Shown: piece by piece, positions 587 through 17,179 of the stretch
Numbering within the stretch: the first letter of the stretch is position 1
Layout of the letters: every line of letters begins with the position of its first letter
Assembly (NCBI GenBank): GCA_015233705.1
Contig: JADFXE010000008.1
Location: forward strand, 1-25,604
Reading direction: 5' to 3'
Source of the DNA: Candidatus Omnitrophota bacterium
Lineage (GTDB): Bacteria; Omnitrophota; Koll11; Zapsychrales; Fredricksoniimonadaceae
DNA: 25,604 nucleotides
Made by a program: the position numbers and the translations under genes
The notes under the pieces: model-generated
What the model was told of the DNA's origin: nothing
Databases searched by the model: none
Seen by the model: only the letters and a program-made list of their open reading frames with translations

Positions 587-663
587 TGGTGGCGGAGACT
601 GGATTTAAACCAGTGACACATCGGGTATGAACCGATTGCTCTATCAGGCTGAGCTACTCCGCC
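587..663 (-). tRNA. tRNA with CAT anticodon (elongator Met or Ile2)
   Basis: A complete cloverleaf can be drawn. The acceptor GGCGGAG pairs with CTCCGCC, followed by discriminator A and an encoded CCA. The D arm is GCTC/GAGC. The anticodon arm is ATCGG/CCGAT with loop TTCATAC. The variable loop is GTGTC, and the T arm is ACTGG/CCAGT. The paired G1-C72 and an anticodon stem without three consecutive G-C pairs argue against initiator tRNA. Elongator Met and lysidine-modified Ile2 both carry CAT and cannot be separated here. Oddly, D-loop position 19 is A rather than G, and T-loop position 56 is T rather than C, so the usual G19-C56 tertiary pair becomes A19-U56. Confidence 0.93.
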
Positions 664-730: not shown

Positions 731-1036
731 TTATTTGGAAAAAAAGATGATCGCCAGAAGCGCTATGATCACGACGAAAGAAACGACATAGAAATCATTA
801 TAAGCAAAAAAATCTCTCAGCCGTTCCTGGAAGGTATACGGGAATTTCACATTCTCGGAGACAATGGTGCCGGAGGATTTCAGCTGCTGGACCTCGACGC
901 GCTTGAAGCGAAGATACTGGTCCGCGATCCGGTAGGACATGAGCTTCTTCTGCTCGGAAAGCTCCATGACCTTGCCCTCGGAAACACCGATTATCTGCGC
1001 GGCCTCCCTGACTGTCACATACGGGCTTTGTGTCAT
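731..1036 (-). CDS. Excisionase-type HTH protein with C-terminal membrane anchor
   Basis: The product has 101 residues. Residues about 6-55 have the pattern of a MerR/excisionase-like DNA-binding domain (VTVREAAQIIGVSEGKVMEL, then a basic wing). Residues about 82-99 form one hydrophobic helix ending in FFSK, so the protein looks tail-anchored with its HTH in the cytoplasm. The start codon overlaps the stop codon of the bactofilin-HTH gene (ATGA, 1033-1036), implying coupled translation and a shared function. I infer that it binds DNA, or a protein, at the inner membrane; no target can be read from the sequence. Nothing resembling phage integration genes is nearby, so a true excisionase role is unlikely. 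Confidence 0.85.
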   Translation of the reverse strand: MTQSPYVTVREAAQIIGVSEGKVMELSEQKKLMSYRIADQYLRFKRVEVQQLKSSGTIVSENVKFPYTFQERLRDFFAYNDFYVVSFVVIIALLAIIFFSK

Positions 1037-1563
1037 CTGACCATGCCGGAAGTGGCCCAGTTATCGATCTGGGCGCGTTCAAATTTGAGGTTTTCGCCTT
1101 CGCGGATGACCGGGATCTTTCCAGAACGGACAAGCTCCGCAATGGCCCCTTCATCGAGCTCAAGATAGATCGCCAATTCCTTGATATTCATCCATTCATT
1201 GGCCTCCTGAACCGTCATGTGACATCCGCCCTGGAAGACCGCACCCTCCACGATGTTCAGCTTCGGGGTATTAATATCGCCGGTCAACACCGCCGTGGGA
1301 AGAAGCGTCAGCATTTTCGTGACACTGACATTTCCCTTAACCTTACCGGCAATGATGACATTGTCGCCGTTGATATTCGCCTCGACCTGCGCCCTACCGC
1401 CGACCGTCAGGGTGCCGCGGACGTCCAGGCTGCCGGAGAACTGGCCGTTGATCTTCAGGTCCACCGGGTCCTTGAAGGTCAAACTTCCGTGCATCTCGGC
1501 ATTGATCTCAATGGACTTGGTTGTTTCTTCGATACGGGGGGCTTTTTTCTCGCCGAAAGCCAT
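1033..1563 (-). CDS. Bactofilin fused to an excisionase-type HTH domain
   Basis: The product has 176 residues. Residues about 15-116 show the bactofilin (DUF583) beta-helix repeat pattern, for example GSLTFKDPVDLKINGQFSGS, with repeated G-x-hydrophobic rungs. Bactofilins polymerise without nucleotide into membrane-associated cytoskeletal filaments. Residues about 125-172 (MNIKELAIYLELDEGAIAEL and a wing ending NLKFERAQIDNW) form a MerR/excisionase-type HTH, which is not part of classical bactofilins. I chose the ATG at 1563 because AGGGAG lies 8 bases upstream and the protein then starts MAFGEKK, a typical bactofilin N-terminus; an earlier start at 1593 has no such signal. The gene has its own promoter and overlaps the membrane-anchored HTH gene downstream. 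Confidence 0.9.
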   Translation of the reverse strand: MAFGEKKAPRIEETTKSIEINAEMHGSLTFKDPVDLKINGQFSGSLDVRGTLTVGGRAQVEANINGDNVIIAGKVKGNVSVTKMLTLLPTAVLTGDINTPKLNIVEGAVFQGGCHMTVQEANEWMNIKELAIYLELDEGAIAELVRSGKIPVIREGENLKFERAQIDNWATSGMVR

Positions 1564-1603
1564 AATCGATACTCCCTGGTAGGATGGTTGCAATAACAGT
1601 CAT

Positions 1604-1632
1604 TTTATAACAGATTGTGCGTGGCAAGTCAA
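1604..1632 (-). promoter_or_regulatory. Sigma70-type promoter of the bactofilin-HTH pair
   Basis: On the minus strand, TTGACT (1627-1632) and TATAAA (1604-1609) are 17 bases apart, close to consensus. The -35 box overlaps the tsaD stop codon (1629-1631). The leader to the ATG at 1563 is about 35 bases and includes the AGGGAG ribosome binding site. The pair can therefore be expressed independently of the tsaD operon. Confidence 0.75.
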
Positions 1633-2627
1633 CACATGGCCGGCTTTTTCACGGAAGACGCATGATGATAAGCCAGGCCAGCGACCATGGCAGCATTGTC
1701 CATGCACAAAGGCAGCGGTGGAAAATGGACCCGCACTCCGGCAGCCTTGGCACGTTCCTCCAACCGGGTCCTGAGAGAGGAATTCGCCGCCACGCCTCCG
1801 CCGATAAGGAGCGTTGTGGCCTTCTTGCGGCGGCAGGCCAAAAGCGCCTTTTCAACCAAAACGTTCACTACACCCTCCTGAAAGGCATGGGCGACCCGCG
1901 GAATGCTGAAATCCTTGCTCGCCGAATGCCGCTGGGTGTAATAAAGCACCGCGGTCTTGATGCCGCTGAAACTGAAGTCATTGGTCCCCTCAAGGCTGGC
2001 GCAGGAAAATCGAATATCGTTATCCCTTACTGTTTGGGCCAATTTGTCAATAACCGGACCGCCCGGATAGCCCAGGTTTAATATCCGCGCAACCTTGTCG
2101 TAGGCCTCCCCGGGTGCATCATCGCGAGTCTGCCCGAAGACACGAAAAGTCCTGAAGTCCTTGATGAAAAAAAGGCTTGAATGTCCGCCGGAAACAACCA
2201 GACCGACAGCAGGGAGCGGAAATTCTTCAAGAAGGTCCTGCCCCTCATCCGCCTTCTTGTCGACCAGATAATTGGAGTAAATGTGCGCCTCAATGTGATT
2301 GACCGGGATCAGCGACTTCTTCAAAGCAAAACTGAGCGAGCTGGCAAAAGACGCACCAACCAGGAGCGAACCGATCAAACCCGGGTTCCTGGTAAAAGCA
2401 ATGGCATCGATCTTCTCCAACGCAAGGCCAGCGGCTGCCAAAGCCCGGGTGCTCACAATATTGATCCACTCCAGCTGACGCCGGGAGGCAATCTCAGGGA
2501 TGATCCCGCCGTACTTCTGGTGGTCCTTGAGGCTGGATGCAACGACATTGGAAAGGATCAGCCGCCCGTCTTTGACAATACTGGCGGAAGTCTCGTCACA
2601 GGATGTTTCAATTCCCAGAATATTCAT
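1629..2627 (-). CDS. tsaD: tRNA N6-threonylcarbamoyladenosine transferase TsaD
   Basis: TsaD transfers the threonylcarbamoyl group from TC-AMP onto A37 of ANN-reading tRNAs, together with TsaB and TsaE; neither is in the window. The 332-residue protein begins MNILGIETSCDETS, the family's ASKHA-fold N-terminus. It has the metal-binding HIEAH at residues 111-115 and the C-terminal GVAANSSLR and DNAAMVAGLAYH motifs. The start at 2627 is chosen because the family motif begins there; a 12-codon upstream extension has no family support. The start overlaps the end of the deacetylase gene by 20 bases, with GGGAG about 13 bases before the ATG, so coupling is likely. Confidence 0.97.
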   Translation of the reverse strand: MNILGIETSCDETSASIVKDGRLILSNVVASSLKDHQKYGGIIPEIASRRQLEWINIVSTRALAAAGLALEKIDAIAFTRNPGLIGSLLVGASFASSLSFALKKSLIPVNHIEAHIYSNYLVDKKADEGQDLLEEFPLPAVGLVVSGGHSSLFFIKDFRTFRVFGQTRDDAPGEAYDKVARILNLGYPGGPVIDKLAQTVRDNDIRFSCASLEGTNDFSFSGIKTAVLYYTQRHSASKDFSIPRVAHAFQEGVVNVLVEKALLACRRKKATTLLIGGGVAANSSLRTRLEERAKAAGVRVHFPPLPLCMDNAAMVAGLAYHHASSVKKPAMC

Positions 2628-3507
2628 ACTGCTTGATGTACTCCCTGACCGGCAGGAACTCAATACCCTGCTGGCTGAACTTTTCCGTCTCTTCCTTGAT
2701 GATCTTAAGCGTCAAGTCCCGGTCATGGCCGATCATAAGCGCATAACCGCGTTTTCTGGCGATACGCACCGCTTGAGCAAACTGATGTTCAATATAAGCT
2801 CGTTCATTGCGGTTATCCAGAAACACATCCCGACGACCGATCTTCATTTTCTGGGCCTGCGCCGCCTGCAGGCAGACGGAACGCTGGGTCGTCACACTGT
2901 CCACAAAAAAAAGATTGCGCTTCTTAAGCTCGCCGAGGACCGTGTTCATCAGCGCAAGACTTTCCGTGCCCTTGGAACCTGTATGGTTATTGACACCGAC
3001 AACGCCGGACATCTCATCCAGAATGCGCCTGAGCGTCTTTTGCAGGACCGGCGCCGGCATTGAGACCAGCAAAAGATAATCCTTGGCATAATACTCGCGG
3101 GCAGAATACGGCTCCAGCGGCAAATGAAGCATGGGATCCTTGCCGGCAGCCTTGGCGCAGGCAATGATATCCCTTGAGTAAGGCAACCCCGGAAGAATCG
3201 CAACGCCCAGAGGTGCGGAAATATCCTGCAGATACCGGCAGTGGGCCTGGTTATATCCCCAATCATCCAGAATGATCGCGATATGCCCGTTAATCTCTGC
3301 CGGAAGCTTTTGCGCCGGCACCGGCGCCTGCGTCGGTCTCGGCACACCCTTAGGCGGGCGCTTGACCTCATGCGATGACGCACCCCTGACCTTCGCCGAC
3401 GGAACCTTCTTATGCAGGACACATCCGCGGATAAAAAGGGCCGCAACCAGGACCGCGATCCCGATTGTCGCCAGGACTATGACATTATTATTCTCGCGAG
3501 ACGACAT
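2608..3507 (-). CDS. Divergent polysaccharide deacetylase family protein
   Basis: The product has 299 residues. Residues about 8-28 form an N-terminal membrane anchor, followed by a basic and proline-rich linker to about residue 70. The rest matches the divergent polysaccharide deacetylase family (DUF610, YibQ-like): HIAIILDDWGYN, then PLGVAILPGLPYS, MLHLPLEPY and a GVNNHTGS stretch. The family has a NodB-like barrel, but its substrate is unproven in most organisms; an envelope role is inferred. It starts 7 bases after the ctpA stop codon with AAAGGA immediately upstream. Pairing with a CtpA-type protease is common and fits a role in cell-wall hydrolase control. Confidence 0.9.
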   Translation of the reverse strand: MSSRENNNVIVLATIGIAVLVAALFIRGCVLHKKVPSAKVRGASSHEVKRPPKGVPRPTQAPVPAQKLPAEINGHIAIILDDWGYNQAHCRYLQDISAPLGVAILPGLPYSRDIIACAKAAGKDPMLHLPLEPYSAREYYAKDYLLLVSMPAPVLQKTLRRILDEMSGVVGVNNHTGSKGTESLALMNTVLGELKKRNLFFVDSVTTQRSVCLQAAQAQKMKIGRRDVFLDNRNERAYIEHQFAQAVRIARKRGYALMIGHDRDLTLKIIKEETEKFSQQGIEFLPVREYIKQYEYSGN

Positions 3508-3514
3508 ATTTCCT

Positions 3515-4957
3515 TTACGAGCCAGCCTTGGCGGGCTGAAGCTTCTTGTAGACCCTGATCCCCTTGATCACATTGATAGCCGCGCGGATCTGGTTATCAT
3601 CATCCATGCGCTTTTTCACCTCAAGCTCGTGCTTGCGCTTCTCGATCGCGTTGGGATCCGTGATGCCCTGCTCCTCTATTTTGTCAAAGATATCCTTGGC
3701 ATCCTTACGGCCTTTTTTATCCTTTTTATCCGCCTTGTCGCTCTTGGCATCCTTCAGATCATCGTCATCATCCGCATCATCCTCGCCCTTGGGATAGACC
3801 CGCTCGACCACGATATCAGGCGTGATACCGATCTCGTGAATACAAACGCCCGAGGGGGTGAAATACTTGCTGGTGGTCAGGCGCAGGCCGGAACCGTCCG
3901 GCAGAGGAATGACCGACTGCACCGATCCCTTGCCAAAGGACTTGACGCCGAGCGTCACGGCGCGCTTGTTATCCTTGAGAGCGCCGGCCACGATCTCGCT
4001 GCCCGAAGCGCTGCCTTCATTGATCATGAGCACGATCGGCCAGTCCGCGAACTCGTCCTTGGTGTTGTGCGAAATACTCACCGAGTTATCAACCGGATGA
4101 CGGCCTTTGGTCGAGACAATGGTCTTCCCTGCAGGGAGGAACATCTCGCTGATCTTGATGGCGACGTTCAACAATCCGCCCGGGTCATTGCGCAGGTCAA
4201 AAATAAGGGCCGTGGCCCCTTCGTCCTTCATCTTCTTAAGGGCCGCATAGATCTGCTCATAGGAATTCTCACGGAACTCAACGAGCCGGACATAGGCGAT
4301 GCCGTCCTCGATAATATGCGGGTCTTTCACATCCTGAATTTTGATGATCTCTCTGGTGATGTCAAACTCGTGGATCTTGAACTCAGGCTCGCGAAGAACC
4401 GTGATATGCACCTTGGTTCCCGGCTCGCCGCGAAGTTTCTTGACCGCGTCGTTCAGCGTCATCTCCTTGGTCAGGTCCTTTTCGATCTTGACGATCCGGT
4501 CGCCGGCCTTGATCCCCGCTTTCCAGGCCGGAGTGTCCTCGATCGGCGTGATGACCGTCAAAAGGCCATCGCGGACGGAGATCTCGATCCCCAGTCCGCC
4601 GAACTTGCCCTCGGTTTCGGTCTTAAGGTCCTTATATTCGTCAGGCGTCAGGAACTGGCTGTGCGGATCAAGAGAAGACAGCATGCCGGTCAACGCGCCG
4701 TAGATGATGTCCTTGGCCTTTTTCTCCTCAACATATTCCGATTGAATGGTCGTGAGAGCGTAACTAAAAAGCTCAACCTGGGCATAAAGATCATCCGGCT
4801 TGAAACTGTCCTTCTTCTCGGTCTCGACCGCTGCCGAAAGGTTCTCGGTGGGCGGCTCTTTGACCGGCGTCGCGACACCTGTCTGGGAACGCGCCACCGT
4901 CGAAAAAAACACGATCGCGCCAACGACCATCAGGACCGCGAGGAATTTCTTAAACAT
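3515..4957 (-). CDS. ctpA: Carboxy-terminal processing protease, S41 family
   Basis: The 480-residue periplasmic serine protease has a signal peptide or anchor at residues 1-28. An N-terminal helical segment contains DPHSQFLTPDEY (97-108). A PDZ domain follows at about 115-190 (GGLGIEIS, AGIKAGDRI). The S41 core has Ser318 in GSASGSE and Lys343 in SFGKG; the 25-residue spacing matches the family's Ser-Lys dyad. The start at 4957 is supported by AAGGAG 7 bases upstream and overlaps the gatB stop by 8 bases. Residues about 391-421 form an unusual tail: an acidic aspartate run followed by a lysine/aspartate-rich stretch, then a helical C-terminus. The symbol is a family assignment. Confidence 0.95.
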   Translation of the reverse strand: MFKKFLAVLMVVGAIVFFSTVARSQTGVATPVKEPPTENLSAAVETEKKDSFKPDDLYAQVELFSYALTTIQSEYVEEKKAKDIIYGALTGMLSSLDPHSQFLTPDEYKDLKTETEGKFGGLGIEISVRDGLLTVITPIEDTPAWKAGIKAGDRIVKIEKDLTKEMTLNDAVKKLRGEPGTKVHITVLREPEFKIHEFDITREIIKIQDVKDPHIIEDGIAYVRLVEFRENSYEQIYAALKKMKDEGATALIFDLRNDPGGLLNVAIKISEMFLPAGKTIVSTKGRHPVDNSVSISHNTKDEFADWPIVLMINEGSASGSEIVAGALKDNKRAVTLGVKSFGKGSVQSVIPLPDGSGLRLTTSKYFTPSGVCIHEIGITPDIVVERVYPKGEDDADDDDDLKDAKSDKADKKDKKGRKDAKDIFDKIEEQGITDPNAIEKRKHELEVKKRMDDDNQIRAAINVIKGIRVYKKLQPAKAGS

Positions 4958-6383
4958 TTTGTATTCTCCTTTGAATGATCTCATTAAGCTTTTTGGGGTT
5001 GGCCTTCCCCTGCATCTTTTTCATCGCCTGGCCAACAAGAAAACCTGAAGCGCTCCCTTTCCCGGAGCGGATCTGTTCAACGACCGCGGGATTCTCTTTG
5101 ATCGCTTCATCCACGACCTTCTCCAGCAGCGAATCATCCGACACCTGGGCCAGGCCCTTGTCGCGGATCACGGCCTCCACATCCTTACCGGAAACAACGA
5201 CTTCGGCGAGGATATCCTTGCCCACCAGATTACTGACCGTGCCGTCCTCAACGTGCTTGATCAGTGCCGCCAAATTCGTCGGCGTCAGCTTGAGCTCCTG
5301 GATGCCGCATTTTCTGTCGTTAAGCTCCTTCATCAGCTGGACGTTCATCCAGTTGCACACCTTCTTCACATCCGGATGAAGCTTGGCAACCGCTTCAAAG
5401 AAATCCGCAAAGGCCCGATTCTGGATCAGGATCGTCGCATCATAATCCGAAAGCTTGTACTGCGAAATAAAACGCTGCCGCTTGGCGCTCGGCGATTCCG
5501 GCAATTCCCGGCACACAGCCTCGATCTCATCAGCCTTGAGCGTGAACGGCACCAGGTCCGGCTCGGGAAAGTACCGGTAGTCGTGCGCCTGTTCCTTGCT
5601 GCGCATGGAAACGCTCATGCCTTTGGCATCATCCCACAACAGCGTCTCCTGCACGACCTTGCCGCCGGACAGGACGACCCGCGTCTGGCGGTCGACCTCA
5701 TACTCAATGGCGCGCTTGACCGCGCTGAAGGAATTCAAATTCTTGAGCTCTGCCTTGGTGCCCAGAGCGCTCTGCCCCACAGGCCGGATCGAGACGTTGG
5801 CATCACAGCGCAGCGACCCTTTTTCCATGTCACAATCGGACACATCAAGGTAGGACAAGGCCAGCTTGAGGGTTGTCAGATAATCGTAAGCTTCCTGGGC
5901 TGAACGCATATCCGGCTCGGAAACGATCTCGATGAGCGGAGTGCCGGTCCGATTGTAATCCACCAATGAACAATTGCCCGCATCATCGTGAATAAGCTTG
6001 CCCGCGTCCTCTTCCATGTGCGCACGGGTGATGCCGATCCGCTTTTCCTTGCCGTCGGAGGTGACCATCAGAAAACCGTTCTTCGCGATCGGGAAATCAA
6101 ACTGGGAAATTTGGTAATCCTTGGGCAGATCAGGATAGAAGTAATTCTTACGGTCGAATTTGACGAACGTGTTGATCTCGCAATTCAGGGCCAGCCCGAC
6201 CTTCATCCCTGACAAAAGGACCTGGCGGTTGAGGACCGGCAGCGATCCCGGCAGCCCCAGGCACACCGGGCACACGCAGGTGTTCGGCTCAGCGCCAAAG
6301 ACATTACGGCAGCCGCAAAAGATCTTCGTCGCGGTGCCCAGCTGAAGGTGAACTTCCAGACCTATAACCGTTTCAAATTCCAT
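4950..6383 (-). CDS. gatB: Asp/Glu-tRNA(Asn/Gln) amidotransferase subunit B
   Basis: GatB is the kinase and tRNA-binding subunit that activates misacylated Glu-tRNA(Gln) or Asp-tRNA(Asn) for transamidation with ammonia from GatA. The 477-residue protein begins MEFETVIGLEVHLQL and has the family signature FDRKNYFYPDLPKDYQISQ. It carries a four-cysteine zinc site (FCGC ... CVCPVC, about residues 22-40). The C-terminal YqeY-like tail ends GQAMKKMQGKANPKKLNEII. It lies 9 bases after gatA, with AGGA upstream of the ATG. The presence of GatCAB implies that at least one of GlnRS and AsnRS may be absent or bypassed in this organism. Confidence 0.97.
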   Translation of the reverse strand: MEFETVIGLEVHLQLGTATKIFCGCRNVFGAEPNTCVCPVCLGLPGSLPVLNRQVLLSGMKVGLALNCEINTFVKFDRKNYFYPDLPKDYQISQFDFPIAKNGFLMVTSDGKEKRIGITRAHMEEDAGKLIHDDAGNCSLVDYNRTGTPLIEIVSEPDMRSAQEAYDYLTTLKLALSYLDVSDCDMEKGSLRCDANVSIRPVGQSALGTKAELKNLNSFSAVKRAIEYEVDRQTRVVLSGGKVVQETLLWDDAKGMSVSMRSKEQAHDYRYFPEPDLVPFTLKADEIEAVCRELPESPSAKRQRFISQYKLSDYDATILIQNRAFADFFEAVAKLHPDVKKVCNWMNVQLMKELNDRKCGIQELKLTPTNLAALIKHVEDGTVSNLVGKDILAEVVVSGKDVEAVIRDKGLAQVSDDSLLEKVVDEAIKENPAVVEQIRSGKGSASGFLVGQAMKKMQGKANPKKLNEIIQRRIQNV

Positions 6384-6392
6384 GTCTTGATC

Positions 6393-7820
6393 CTAAAGCT
6401 TCGCTCTCTGTGAATGCCAAGGGTGCGCCTGCTCGTAACTGTAGGCGACCCGCAGCAATGTCTCCTCGTCAAAGGCCTTGGTCATGATCTGCAGGCCGAT
6501 GGGCAGCTTCTTGTCATCAAATCCGCACGGGATGGAAATCCCCGGGATGCCAGCCAGGTTCGCCGGAATCGTGAAGATGTCTGAAAGATACATGGACAAA
6601 GGATCGTTCGCCTTCTCGCCGATCTTGAAGGCCGTGGTCGGTGACGTCGGACAAATGATCGCGTCACACTCCGCAAACGCTCTGTCAAAATCCTGCTTGA
6701 TGAGCGTGCGGACCTTCTGGGCGCGAAGATAATAAGCGTCATAATATCCCGACGAAAGGACATAGGTGCCGAGCATGATCCTGCGCTTGGCCTCATTGCC
6801 GAAACCCTTCTGGCGCGTTGTCTCATACATATCGATCAGGGCGGTCTTGCCGGGCTTGTCAGGATACGCGCGCAGGCCGTACTGAACACCGTCGAAGCGG
6901 GCCAAATTGGAGCTGGCCTCGGCTGTCGCCACAATATAATACGTCGCCACTGCATATTCCGTGTGCGGCAAAGAGATCTCCTTGACGACCGCGCCCTGTT
7001 TCTTCAAAGACTCGACCGCCTCGCGCACAGCCTTCAGGACTTCCAGCTGGATACCGTCAATGAAATACTCTTTCGGAATGCCGATCCGCAGGCCCTTCAC
7101 ATCCTTTACCAGTGCCCTGGTGTAATCCGGCACCGGCTTGTCGACCGAGGTCGAATCGCGCTGGTCGAATCCCGCGATGATGTTCAACAGCAGGGCACAG
7201 TCCCTGACGTCCTTGGTGAAAGGACCGATCTGGTCCAGGCTCGAACCAAAGGCAATAAGACCGTAACGTGACACACGGCCGTAAGTTGGCTTCAGGCCCA
7301 CCACGCCACAGAACGCCGCCGGCTGACGGATAGACCCGCCGGTATCACTCCCCAGCGCCCAAACCGCCTGACCTGCCGCAACCGCAGCCGCTGAACCACC
7401 GGAAGAACCGCCCGGAACCCGTTCCAGATCCCAGGGGTTGCAGGTAATGCCGTAGGCCGATGTCTCCGTCGAAGAACCAAAGGCGAATTCATCCATGTTC
7501 AACCCGCCCAAAATAACACCACCCTTGGCCTTGATGCGCTCAATGACGCCGGCATCATACGGCGGCCGGAACCCTGCAAGGATCCTGGACGCACAGGTCG
7601 CCAGCTGACCTTTGATGCAGATATTATCCTTGATACCGATCGGCAGCGGACACTCGCCCGCATTGGCCTCAACCGGGTCATAAAAACGCGCAAAGGCATG
7701 AGTCTTTGCGTTCACAGACTCAGCACGGGCGCGAACAGACGCGGTCACCTCGACGGGCGAACCCTTCCCGGAGGCGATCAGGTCCAGAAGTTCATGGGCT
7801 GTTTGATCGTAGAGGTTCAT
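6393..7820 (-). CDS. gatA: Asp/Glu-tRNA(Asn/Gln) amidotransferase subunit A
   Basis: GatA is the glutaminase subunit, which releases ammonia that is channelled to GatB. The 475-residue protein shows the amidase-signature catalytic triad Lys64 (PIGIKDN), Ser139 (GGSSGGS) and Ser163 ([12 protein letters not shown]), with the same spacing as characterised GatA enzymes. The C-terminal half has [18 protein letters not shown], also typical. The length is normal. The start codon overlaps the gatC stop codon (ATGA), so the subunits are translationally coupled in the order C-A-B. Confidence 0.97.
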
Positions 7821-8197: not shown

Positions 8198-9844
8198 TCA
8201 GGAAACCACCAGATCATGGACTTCCAATCCCTTGGGGATCGTAAAATGGAAGGCCGCGCCTTTGCCAAGATCAGATTCCACCCAAACCTTCCCGCCATGG
8301 TCATCGATGACACTTTTGACAATGCTCAGGCCCGCGCCAGTCCCCTCATATTTATCGGAAGTATCCAGACGCTTGAAGATCGCAAAGATCTCCTCGTGAT
8401 ACTGCGACTCAATGCCGATCCCGTTATCCTGGACAATAAATTCGTGCGAATCCACATTCTCTTTGTAGGAAACCTTGACCATGGGCTGCAGATCAGGACT
8501 GCCGCTGGAGAACTTGATCGCATTGGTCAAAAGGTTCTGAAAGACCTCCTTGACCTTGATCCCGTCGCAGATAATCGTCGGCATGTCGCGCTCGATCTTC
8601 AGATCAACCTTGGCCTCCTTGATCTTGTACTCCAGCGTGACGGCCAGTTCATCCAAAAGCGCACCGATCTGGACATACTGATAGGGATTGCGCACCCGGG
8701 AGATCCGGGTCAGGGCCAAAAGATCCTTGATCAAGGCATTTGAGCGATCCACGCCCCGGCACACACCCTCGAGACATTCCCGGGCCTTCACGTCAAAATT
8801 ATCGTAATAATGGCTCCTCAAGAACTCCGCATACCACGCGATCCCCATCAAGGGCGAGCGGATGTCATGGCTAACCGTCTGGACAAAACGATCAAGCTCG
8901 CGATTGACCCTTTCCAGGTCCTTTTTCTGTTGCTCGGTGATCTCCAGATTATGTCTGAGCGCTTCCCGTTGCTCCTCGAGCTTCTTCTTCGATTCATCCA
9001 GCTGAAAGGCCATTTTGTTGAACGCCCGGCTGACCGCGCCCACTTCGTCCTTGGCTGATCCATCCAGATGGATATCCAGGCGCCCGGCCCCTACATCCTC
9101 CGCCGCCTTGACCAGTGTCTTCAAAGGCTCGTCGATACTGCGGATGATCCAAAAGGTCAGCGACAGGGCCGCCAGCAGGCTCAGGGACAAAATGATCCAC
9201 AGCGCACGCTCGGCCGTTGATTCATACTGCCGGGACCTGTCCAGCGAGCGCTTGGTCAACTGCTCGACCTCATTCATCAGGTTTTCAAGCTCCGTAGAAA
9301 GCTTGCGCTCATCACGATGGATCTGATCCACATCGTCAGTGGAAAGTTCATACTTGCCGGCCGCAATGGCGCCGAACATCTCGCCGATGAGCGCATCGTA
9401 ATGAATATGGGCCTTCTCGATCTCCTTGAGCGTCGCAGCCGCCCCGCGCAGGGCGTCGTGCACCTTGGCTTCCCGCGCCGAATGGATCGCGTCATCGATC
9501 AGAACCTTGGCATCAACGATGTTAAGCGCACCGGCCTTGGCCAGGTCATCAAAAGTGCCTTTTCCCAAGTTGACATGGAACAGCAGATGCTCCTTGCGCG
9601 CGGGAGTGGTCTGCTGATACGCCAGCTCCTCGGCGATGCGCCGGACACGCTCAAAGACCACCGCTTTCTGCAACTGGGACTTGGTCACGGCCGTGGCGGT
9701 CTGCATCAGGACCACGTCCTTGTTGACAACACCCTTCAATTCTCCGCCGACACGCTGCAGAAGCCGGGAACCGACCAGGCCGACAATGGCCAGAAACAGC
9801 AACAGAGAAATGGCAAGCAACAGGACCTTGGCCGAGATCTTCAT
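8198..9844 (-). CDS. Membrane sensor histidine kinase (orphan)
   Basis: The product has 548 residues. Transmembrane helices at about 7-28 and 213-234 enclose a helical periplasmic sensor of about 180 residues, which has no recognised ligand motif. A HAMP domain follows at about 235-288, then a coiled coil at 288-320. The HisKA domain has phospho-acceptor His326 in TVSHDIRSPL. The ATPase domain has the N box around Asn437-Asn441, G1 at 473-478 (DNGIGI) and G2 at 501-505 (GTGAG). The core resembles phytochrome-type kinases. There is no receiver domain and no response regulator gene in the window, so its partner is elsewhere. The start overlaps the ybgC stop codon (ATGA). Confidence 0.93.
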   Translation of the reverse strand: MKISAKVLLLAISLLLFLAIVGLVGSRLLQRVGGELKGVVNKDVVLMQTATAVTKSQLQKAVVFERVRRIAEELAYQQTTPARKEHLLFHVNLGKGTFDDLAKAGALNIVDAKVLIDDAIHSAREAKVHDALRGAAATLKEIEKAHIHYDALIGEMFGAIAAGKYELSTDDVDQIHRDERKLSTELENLMNEVEQLTKRSLDRSRQYESTAERALWIILSLSLLAALSLTFWIIRSIDEPLKTLVKAAEDVGAGRLDIHLDGSAKDEVGAVSRAFNKMAFQLDESKKKLEEQREALRHNLEITEQQKKDLERVNRELDRFVQTVSHDIRSPLMGIAWYAEFLRSHYYDNFDVKARECLEGVCRGVDRSNALIKDLLALTRISRVRNPYQYVQIGALLDELAVTLEYKIKEAKVDLKIERDMPTIICDGIKVKEVFQNLLTNAIKFSSGSPDLQPMVKVSYKENVDSHEFIVQDNGIGIESQYHEEIFAIFKRLDTSDKYEGTGAGLSIVKSVIDDHGGKVWVESDLGKGAAFHFTIPKGLEVHDLVVS

Positions 9845-14977: not shown

Positions 14978-17179
14978 CTACTTCCAGTCCTTCTGAAACG
15001 TCAGGACCAGCGGCGTCACGATATACATCGTCGAATACACACCGCAGATAAACCCGATGATCAAAACCAGCGAGAAGGTGTTCAAAACCTCTCCGCCGAA
15101 GAAAAAGAGCGCCACAACGACCAGCAGCGTGACCAGCGTGGTCAGGATCGTCCGGCCCAGCGTCTGGTTAATACTGTGATTGATGATCTGCGCCAGCGTT
15201 TCCTTCTTGTTCTTCAGGAGATTCTCGCGGACACGGTCAAACACAATGATCGTGTCGTTGATCGAATAACCCGCAATCGTCAACAGCGCAGTCACGACCA
15301 GAAGGTCGATCTGCCGCCCCAAAACAACCGAAAGCCCCAGAGCCACCAAAATGTCGTGGATGAGCGCAATAACACCCGCCAGGGCAAAACCGAAGTTCTT
15401 GAATCGGATCCCGACGTAGATGAGAATTGATCCCAGCGCCAGAGCGATCGCCCAAATAGCACGCTGGCGAAGAGCCTTACCGACAACCGGCCCCACCTTC
15501 TCAACACGCACGATCTCAAAACCGTTATCCGGGAATTCTTTCTTGAAGATCGCCGTCACCTGTTTGTCCGAATCCTCGCTCGTGCGAATGATAACATTCT
15601 CGGGATTCTTATCAAACTGCTGGATGACCGCATCCTTGATACTGGCATCCTTAAGAGCCTTCCGTACCACTTCCGCTGAAACCGGTCTCTGGAAGCGATA
15701 CTGCTGGACCTGGCCGCCGGAGAAATCGATCCCGTAAGCCTGCGGACCTTTCATCATGATAACAATAAGGCCGCCGATGGTCACAACTGCGGAAAGGACA
15801 CAGAAAAGATACATGCTCTTGAGGAAATTGAAGTCCGTCTTTTTGCTCAGGATCTTCATCATTCTCAAGTTCTTGATAATGCCCTTCTCCAGAAGATACT
15901 CAAAAATGGCCCGCGAAACATAGACCGCCGTGAACAAACTGGCCGCCAACCCGATGGACAGTGTCACTGCAAAACCCTTGATCGGGCCTGAACCGAACTG
16001 AAAGAGCAAAAACGCCGCCACCAGTGAGGTGACATGCGTGTCAATGATGGCCCGCAAAGCGCGGTCATAACCGCTCGACAACGCCGCAGCCAGAGTGCGG
16101 CCGTTCTCCAACTCCTCACGAATACGCTCATTAATAAGGACGTTGGCATCAACCGCCATCCCCAATGTTAGGACGATACCTGCAATACCCGGCAAGGTCA
16201 GGGTGACCTGAGAGCCTGGCATCATGACATTGATGAAACCCATGGCGCCGATGATCATGCCAAGGTTGACCACCAGGGCCAGGGAAGCGATCATGCCGCC
16301 AACCCAGTAATACATGATCATGAACGCCACAACGAACAAAGAACCAAAGATCGTGGCCCAAATACCTGAATGAATAGAATCTCTGCCGAGCAAAGGACCG
16401 ATGGTGCGCTCTTCTTCCACATAAATTGGCACAGGTAGAGAACCGGAGCGCAGCGCCAAGGCCAGCATGGAAGCATCTTCGAATTTGAAGTCGCCCGTGA
16501 TCTCGGCTGTGCCGGTCAGAATCGGCTCGCGGATATTGGGAGCCGACAGGACCTCATTATCCATAACGATCGCCAAGCGCTCACCAACATGCTTCTGGGT
16601 CAGGTCCGCGAAATTCTTGGACCCTTCATTATTAAAGGTCAAACTGATCCGGTAATAAAACGACTGCTGGTCAAGCTCGGCACGGGCATCCGTGATCGCC
16701 TCACCACCCATCACAGCCTTGGACTCCAGAAGGATCGGGGCACGACCCTTTTCCTTCAAATACTTAAGCTCATACCCTTCAGGGACCTTGCCAGCCAAGG
16801 CGTCCTTGAACATGGCATCGTCTTCCTTGACGATCTTGAATTCCAGATGCGCCACGCGCTTGACCATATCAACGGCCCTGTCGCGGTCAGTCACACCCGG
16901 CAACTGAACCAGAATCTGATCTTCACCCTGGCGCTGGATCACGGTCTCGCCCACACCCAGGCTGTCGATACGGTTGCGCAGGATCTCCATGGCCCGCAGC
17001 ACAGCATCTTCCTTAAGAGCCGGAGCGAGTTTGGAGGTGTCGACCTTAAGGACCAGGTGCATACCGCCCCTCAAGTCCAACCCCAGATTGATACGCTTGT
17101 TGATCGGCCAGGCGAAGGCCGCACACGCGATGATGACGCCGAGAATAAGGTAGAATTTGTTGCGAAGTCCCTTGCTCAT
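14978..17179 (-). CDS. secDF: Protein translocase SecDF fusion
   Basis: SecDF uses the proton gradient to pull exported proteins through SecYEG. The 733-residue protein joins SecD (about 1-425) and SecF (about 440-733). SecD has LGLDLRGGMHLVL, a large periplasmic domain and AGIVLTLGMAVDANVLINERIREEL. SecF has YGIDFSGGQVQQYRF and a transmembrane block with AGYSINDTIIVFDRVREN. About twelve membrane helices are expected and visible. The intracellular joint falls near KILSKKTDFNF. SecD and SecF are separate in many bacteria, so the fusion is a useful trait. AGGGA precedes the ATG, and yajC lies 30 bases upstream as in many genomes. Confidence 0.97.
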   Translation of the reverse strand: MSKGLRNKFYLILGVIIACAAFAWPINKRINLGLDLRGGMHLVLKVDTSKLAPALKEDAVLRAMEILRNRIDSLGVGETVIQRQGEDQILVQLPGVTDRDRAVDMVKRVAHLEFKIVKEDDAMFKDALAGKVPEGYELKYLKEKGRAPILLESKAVMGGEAITDARAELDQQSFYYRISLTFNNEGSKNFADLTQKHVGERLAIVMDNEVLSAPNIREPILTGTAEITGDFKFEDASMLALALRSGSLPVPIYVEEERTIGPLLGRDSIHSGIWATIFGSLFVVAFMIMYYWVGGMIASLALVVNLGMIIGAMGFINVMMPGSQVTLTLPGIAGIVLTLGMAVDANVLINERIREELENGRTLAAALSSGYDRALRAIIDTHVTSLVAAFLLFQFGSGPIKGFAVTLSIGLAASLFTAVYVSRAIFEYLLEKGIIKNLRMMKILSKKTDFNFLKSMYLFCVLSAVVTIGGLIVIMMKGPQAYGIDFSGGQVQQYRFQRPVSAEVVRKALKDASIKDAVIQQFDKNPENVIIRTSEDSDKQVTAIFKKEFPDNGFEIVRVEKVGPVVGKALRQRAIWAIALALGSILIYVGIRFKNFGFALAGVIALIHDILVALGLSVVLGRQIDLLVVTALLTIAGYSINDTIIVFDRVRENLLKNKKETLAQIINHSINQTLGRTILTTLVTLLVVVALFFFGGEVLNTFSLVLIIGFICGVYSTMYIVTPLVLTFQKDWK

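Follow-up and report, generated by a model that had tools for sequence, protein, structure and literature searches.

The locus encodes a bactofilin fusion and a putatively membrane-anchored relative of its C-terminal domain

We analysed a 25,604-nucleotide stretch of DNA from a Candidatus Omnitrophota bacterium (assembly GCA_015233705.1, contig JADFXE010000008.1, positions 1 to 25,604; "the window" below means this whole stretch). Two overlapping minus-strand genes in it encode a bactofilin joined to a winged helix-turn-helix (wHTH) domain, here called the BH fusion (P0001), and a second wHTH protein that ends in a hydrophobic helix, here called HTM (P0002). An earlier reading of the DNA letters (the sequence-only reading) had described a bactofilin beta-helix with an in-frame HTH, coupled through an ATGA overlap to a second, related HTH with a C-terminal membrane helix. 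Both open reading frames are present on the minus strand, and Pfam matches together with an AlphaFold2 model bear out the fusion; the membrane topology of HTM is a prediction. Published background is cited from sections of PMC12448750, PMC5859096 and PMC5703909, with sections of PMC12704722 and PMC11963761 as further sources. The features of the pair are as follows.

1033..1563, minus strand: gene 1, bactofilin with C-terminal wHTH (BH fusion), P0001, 176 residues (open reading frame, profile match, AlphaFold2)
1222..1512, minus strand: bactofilin beta-helix domain, P0001 residues 18-114
1048..1194, minus strand: wHTH domain of BH with acidic recognition helix, P0001 residues 124-172 (profile, model, charge analysis)
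1543..1563, minus strand: N-terminus MAFGEKK, a possible weak membrane-targeting peptide (sequence, column statistics, likeness to MFSKKKK)
1033..1036, minus strand: ATGA, stop/start overlap of gene 1 and gene 2 (sequence)
731..1036, minus strand: gene 2, HTM, a wHTH with C-terminal hydrophobic helix, P0002, 101 residues (open reading frame, profile, homologues)
878..1021, minus strand: wHTH domain of HTM, P0002 residues 6-53 (profile; fold of the homologous L132 chain)
788..826, minus strand: juxtamembrane motif, P0002 residues 71-83, ERLRDFFAYNDFY here, with a family consensus near ERxxDFFYFNDFY
737..793, minus strand: C-terminal hydrophobic helix, likely tail anchor, P0002 residues 82-100 (sequence; L132 model)

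Residues 18-114 of P0001 match PF04519 (Bactofilin) with an E-value of 4.3e-24 and 85.1 bits against a cut-off of 27.9, while residues 124-172 match PF12728 (HTH_17; E 5.6e-6) at 27.0 bits, exactly the cut-off. In the AlphaFold2 model, a right-handed beta-helix like that of solved bactofilins, with strands within residues 17-116, is followed by the wHTH, which comprises helices at 127-134 and 138-147, wing strands at 153-155 and 158-162, and a helix at 163-172. The mean predicted local distance difference test score (pLDDT) per ten residues is 77-84 over residues 121-170 and 57 for the final six residues. The conserved phenylalanine of the C-terminal polymerisation interface is kept as F110 (F in 68% and L in 27% of 163 unique pairs), with its correspondence to F105 of the Thermus thermophilus (Tth) bactofilin taken from aligned residue ranges. 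From fold and family, the beta-helix probably polymerises. MAFGEKK loosely resembles MFSKKKK, the membrane-targeting consensus of bactofilins (PMC12448750), and is possibly a membrane-targeting peptide; its hydrophobic residue lies at position 3, not 2, and K or R accounts for 53% of column 6 and 67% of column 7.

Residues 6-53 of P0002 match HTH_17 at 26.6 bits (E 7e-6), slightly under the cut-off of 27. We read the fold of HTM from the L132 homologue, modelled inside a linked BH-HTM chain, in which the protein ends in a 19-residue helix. Residues D75, F76, N80, D81, F82 and Y83 of the juxtamembrane motif are each 92-99% conserved across the 163 unique pairs, and the motif is degenerate in a few divergent HTMs (L246, L253); it may lie on the membrane or bind a second ligand. 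The BH and HTM wHTH domains are related to each other, with a profile-profile comparison of 71 against 71 sequences giving a probability of 97.9% and an E-value of 5e-13.

BH and HTM form a near phylum-wide, single-copy gene pair

A search with P0001 returned 619 homologues at E <= 0.001; among the 120 listed, 112 have both Pfam domains and eight have PF04519 alone. P0002 has 53 homologues, itself counted. A scan of GTDB species genomes gave 65 loci, and HTM directly follows BH in all 61 Omnitrophota loci with a strong BH match, at a gap of -4 to +82 bases in loci with a clear start. The other four loci comprise three plain bactofilins from other phyla (L062, L063, L065) and one Omnitrophota gene inside which the contig ends (L064). 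When 196 sequences were scanned (195 loci and the window), HTM was present in 192, and 189 of these have BH directly upstream; this set contains places fetched twice, and the unique BH-HTM pairs number 163. The pairing seen at the window is therefore not a matter of chance. The row sets behind the counts held 25 of the 120 listed homologues (A1), 26 of the 53 (A2), 39 of 40 chosen (A6) and 71 of 81 chosen out of the 163 unique pairs (A3, A4).

At the level of genomes, HTM occurs in 252 of 285 Omnitrophota genomes, in one copy each (profile, E <= 1e-13), and the BH fusion in 237 of 285 (BH profile, E <= 1e-35). In G228, a second and plain bactofilin (L260) also clears the BH threshold, although the best BH match in each of the 237 genomes reaches 3.1e-54 or lower, compared to 8.5e-30 for the best plain bactofilin of other phyla. 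PF04519 was found in 239 of the 285 genomes and is single in 226, which indicates that the fusion is usually the sole bactofilin. Both genes occur in 237 genomes, HTM without BH in 15, neither in 33, and BH without HTM in none of 237; since completeness was not given for the 285 genomes, missing sequence may account for part of the 33 that have neither. This one-way co-occurrence makes HTM the constant part of the pair and the bactofilin the dispensable part. Genomes lacking the fusion, which the sequence-only reading had counted among possible evidence against it, thus exist as a minority (15 of the 252 with HTM).

At 12 of the 15 HTM-only loci we could see the arrangement: tsaD, sometimes an MgtC-like gene, and then HTM, with no bactofilin between them, in genomes that all fall outside the 239 with PF04519. 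Two of the remaining three (G160, G266) begin at a contig edge, and the third (G034) has one weak bactofilin match. In a TsaD tree of 113 rows, bactofilin presence needs four changes, at least two of them forced by well-supported branches. The rows were hand-chosen (101 paired, 12 unpaired); an earlier tree held 75 of 115 chosen paired rows, the window and the 12 unpaired rows. We read the four changes as probable losses because the lineages surrounding them have the fusion.

Three further observations concern the pair. In one clade without a bactofilin, HTM lies between tsaD and a polA-like gene (read as DNA polymerase I) at six of the 12 loci (L268, L270-L274); three of these places were also fetched as L169, L187 and L189. 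Genome G020, which is without PF04519, encodes a divergent HTM-like protein at L279 ~1438-1836 (minus strand) with the juxtamembrane sequence RYYDFYIVS and no tsaD found nearby. Assembly nDJH2bin18 has two different BH-HTM pairs (L001, L014), representing either a paralogue or a mixed bin.

Recognition helices of most BH and HTM domains have lost positive charge

The wHTH protein BldC contacts DNA bases through R30 and K26, phosphates through T27, T29 and K33, and DNA also through wing residues H46, R47 and R48; an R30A substitution essentially abrogates binding, and RacA has an equivalent arginine that contacts bases (PMC5859096). We compared the corresponding positions in 71 BH and 71 HTM domains with same-phylum HTH_17 controls, taking BldC positions 24-36 as the recognition helix. 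The first 28 controls were the best-scoring PF12728 matches and leaned towards canonical sequences, so 36 lower-scoring ones were added, and the contrast held. Two of the first 30 loci (L205, L221) were left out after the profile filter took them for BH or HTM, and the later 40 gave 36 controls once a repeat (L332, of L219) and three loci fetched for a fusion check were removed. Controls were defined by their PF12728 match alone, not by established function. As the sequences are related, the charge figures are descriptions rather than independent trials, and Mann-Whitney and Fisher p-values were set aside.

Mean net charge of the recognition helix is -1.34 in BH (standard deviation 0.95, n=71) and -0.89 in HTM (n=71), compared to +3.14 in the high-scoring controls (n=28) and +2.17 in the lower-scoring ones (n=36); among known proteins, BldC, Gp37 and RacA have +3 and Tn916 Xis +1. 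A helix charge of zero or less is seen in 68/71 BH, 61/71 HTM and 4/64 controls (0/28 and 4/36). Over the whole domain, BH carries -3.61, HTM +1.87, and the two control sets +3.89 and +3.86, with none of the 36 lower-scoring controls negative. The BldC R30 position is D or E in 59/71 BH (E143 in P0001) and 55/71 HTM (E25 in P0002), while the K26 position is K or R in 3/71 BH and 49/71 HTM. The HTM wing has a charge of +3.3, compared to +3.0 in controls, and R43 is invariant in HTM. Where BH is absent, the HTM recognition helix is more acidic (-2.25, n=12). Many small HTH_17 proteins in Omnitrophota (L202-L231), often with the sequence YLxVKKRTxYDWxKKGKIPA, are far more basic than BH.

The basic DNA-contact surface, whose loss had been named beforehand as telling against DNA binding, is thus largely gone from BH and half gone from HTM. 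BH has lost the electrostatics of a DNA binder, and on these sequences DNA binding by BH is disfavoured. HTM is intermediate, pairing an acidic helix with a basic wing through which it might still touch DNA. These figures bear on a DNA tether, in which BH, HTM or both would attach to DNA and link the nucleoid to a bactofilin scaffold at the membrane, much like RacA at the Bacillus pole. Given acidic mean helix charges in both proteins, acids at the R30 position in most of them and a negative BH domain, we consider such a tether unlikely, and a tether through BH was rejected as the best reading on net charge.

Two other lines of argument were set aside. Replacement of R30 by an acid was discarded as the lead argument in favour of net helix charge, the better measure. 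A "natural experiment" drawn from the 12 HTMs without BH, which differ from paired ones at Y35/K36, K21 and D/E25, was dropped because the paired tree neighbours L107, L108 and L110 also have no acid at position 25 and two of the four losses retain Y35.

A candidate membrane-anchored bactofilin module

We propose that the two genes encode a membrane-anchored bactofilin module in which each wHTH binds a protein and HTM serves the bactofilin as membrane receptor, a reading to which we give an even chance. The beta-helix would polymerise, and the wHTH of BH would derive from an excisionase/BldC-like DNA-binding domain turned protein-docking domain. HTM would be a tail-anchored inner-membrane protein whose cytoplasmic wHTH receives BH; the two wHTHs would touch directly or be bridged by a partner common to both. 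The wHTHs of BldC contact each other head to tail, as do those of RdfS. This arrangement would fix the filament to the membrane; in Caulobacter, the bitopic client PbpC can play that part for BacA. In several lineages HTM persists where the bactofilin is gone, which suggests that HTM has a second role. The sequence-only reading had considered that the pair might tether either DNA or a shared protein partner to a membrane scaffold, or act as a regulator bound to the membrane; gene order and one-way co-occurrence give good support to a coupled membrane-scaffold pair, with scaffolding of a protein partner favoured.

Several points weigh against this proposal. Most bactofilins are thought to bind the membrane unaided, with no receptor needed (PMC12448750). 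An acid at the R30 position is not decisive alone, as it also occurs in 11/28 controls. The HTM wing is as basic without BH (+3.25) as in paired proteins (+3.31), so BH binding alone does not explain the patch. AlphaFold2 modelling of a linked BH-HTM chain (L132, natural in-frame gap) gave a predicted template modelling score (pTM) of 0.35 and no confident docking, a result that neither supports nor refutes BH-HTM contact. In a mean-field direct coupling analysis of 146 BH/HTM/TsaD triplets (121 effective), gap artefacts dominated and BH-HTM coupling did not rise above that of the TsaD controls; with a BH-HTM maximum of z 3.75, below the 10.7 of the BH-TsaD control, the analysis is uninformative. 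Finally, a literature search, with subscription papers and preprints outside its reach, found no experiment on BH or HTM.

More tentatively, the module could be a composite bactofilin-wHTH-membrane array, in which the acidic BH domain of each subunit would join the wHTH of the tail-anchored receptor head to tail; the receptor would be the more constant part, with a second ligand, and the array would be a phylum-defining cytoskeletal system that uses a recruited DNA-binding fold to fasten filament to membrane.

Alternatively, the two wHTHs might not touch each other but each bind the same third protein, in the way that CbpM binds a J-domain. Two homologous acidic-helix domains in one operon, the CbpM precedent (3ucs) and the lack of a docking or coupling signal between BH and HTM are all consistent with this idea. 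There is, however, no obvious partner gene: the near-constant upstream neighbour, tsaD, functions in tRNA modification, and the MgtC-like and AIR-carboxylase-like genes that flank the pair in deep loci are not found at the window. We regard a third protein of this kind as improbable. A division of labour, in which BH docks only on HTM or another protein and HTM makes weak contact with DNA or RNA at the membrane by way of its basic wing, is likewise improbable. It would fit the control-like wing charge, kept in the 12 bactofilin-less lineages, and the retention of HTM without BH; against it, the HTM helix is acidic, more so where BH is absent, and the wing charge may be structural, since controls have similar basic wings. 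The pair might also be a one-component transcription regulator bound to the membrane, the bactofilin acting as its sensor or localiser. Although an HTH with a C-terminal membrane helix is a known plan of such regulators, this is very improbable given the acidic recognition helices, the few residues and no periplasmic domain beyond the HTM helix, and the fixed position at the end of a housekeeping gene cluster.

Comparison with known systems

In bactofilins of the BacA/CcmA family (PF04519; for instance Thermus thermophilus bactofilin and Caulobacter BacA), the usual C-terminal tail is short and poorly conserved (PMC12448750), whereas here it is a folded wHTH, and the bactofilin comes in a fixed pairing with a membrane wHTH protein. 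Within the bactofilin family we regard the BH fusion as a new variant, one that has a membrane partner of its own. Both wHTHs share fold and topology with BldC, RdfS, Xis and RacA but differ in being fused to a filament protein or a membrane helix and, in most BH and HTM, in having lost the positive charge of the recognition helix. Relative to a RacA-type chromosome anchor, the R30-equivalent arginine (PMC5859096) is replaced by D or E in most BH and HTM.

Two bactofilin systems offer closer parallels. In Myxococcus xanthus, the C-terminal region of BacP recruits PadC, a partner encoded next door; unlike the proteins here, the BacP C-terminus is disordered, and PadC is ParB-like, with no membrane helix described in the sections drawn on (PMC5703909). 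In the present pair, a wHTH is present on both sides, and HTM has a hydrophobic helix at its C-terminus. In Caulobacter, PbpC is a membrane-spanning client of BacA whose cytoplasmic part helps hold the bactofilin to the membrane (PMC12448750), but PbpC synthesises cell wall and its cytoplasmic tail is unrelated.

Neither protein was found complete in two other phyla

Searched with the HTM profile, 199 genomes from the phylum of G009 (labelled Planctomycetota) and 198 from that of G008 (labelled Deltaproteobacteria UBA5758) yielded no complete open match. Matches at E <= 1e-8 in six and seven of these genomes, respectively, covered the HTH part only or ran through stop codons. The BH profile detected bactofilins or HTHs in 64/149 and 122/148 genomes, and among the matches listed no open frame had both domains. 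L245, a candidate fusion from outside Omnitrophota, proved to be a different protein with an HTH only, and G585, G590 and G544, the longest among the matches listed, are plain bactofilins. Neither protein was therefore found complete in this sample, which represents two phyla and not all bacteria. Tandem bactofilin-like genes occur outside Omnitrophota, with three at L062 4849-6906 (labelled Deltaproteobacteria UBA5758) and at least two in G585 (L311).

A phage or mobile origin was also rejected: a search that covered P0002 and not P0001 yielded no viral relative, with four stretches raised and none confirmed, and PHROGs match both proteins in the HTH only. The literature search described above found no paper naming both bactofilin and Omnitrophota, and papers on bactofilin and helix-turn-helix gave no indication of a bactofilin-HTH fusion.

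Gene neighbourhood

Three features flank the pair at the window.

1629..2663, minus strand: tsaD, conserved neighbour upstream of the pair (PF00814; neighbourhood comparison)
587..663, minus strand: tRNA-Met (CAT), after HTM
521-549: terminator-like hairpin beyond tRNA-Met

The tsaD gene is upstream of the pair almost always, in 60 loci of one neighbourhood set and in second place in 83/96 of another. Deep loci have an MgtC-like gene (86/97) and an AIR-carboxylase-like gene (60/97) flanking the pair. A very stable order runs through window positions 1629-7820 and L001-L061: gatC-gatA-gatB, S41 protease, divergent polysaccharide deacetylase, tsaD, (MgtC-like), bactofilin-HTH and HTM. Downstream of HTM there are often SNase-like, tilS, ftsH, folP and cdaA-like genes, the final four named from sequence reading, and in deep lineages an AIR-carboxylase-like gene (LarB?) with acetyl-CoA synthase genes. 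Elsewhere in the window, secD and secF are fused into one 733-residue protein (14978-17179, minus strand), and a HAMP histidine kinase adjoins gatA (8198-9844, minus strand).

Significance for Omnitrophota

The Omnitrophota are a widespread phylum, mostly without cultured members, whose cell biology is poorly known. As a single-copy module in most of their genomes that was not complete in the two other phyla sampled, the BH-HTM pair is a strong candidate for a core cell-building part. Both proteins are small enough to express, which makes the proposal testable without culturing the organism. If it is true, a dedicated receptor would tether a bactofilin to the membrane and a DNA-binding fold would have been turned into a structural connector, and the pair may be a phylum-wide way to tie the cell scaffold to the membrane.
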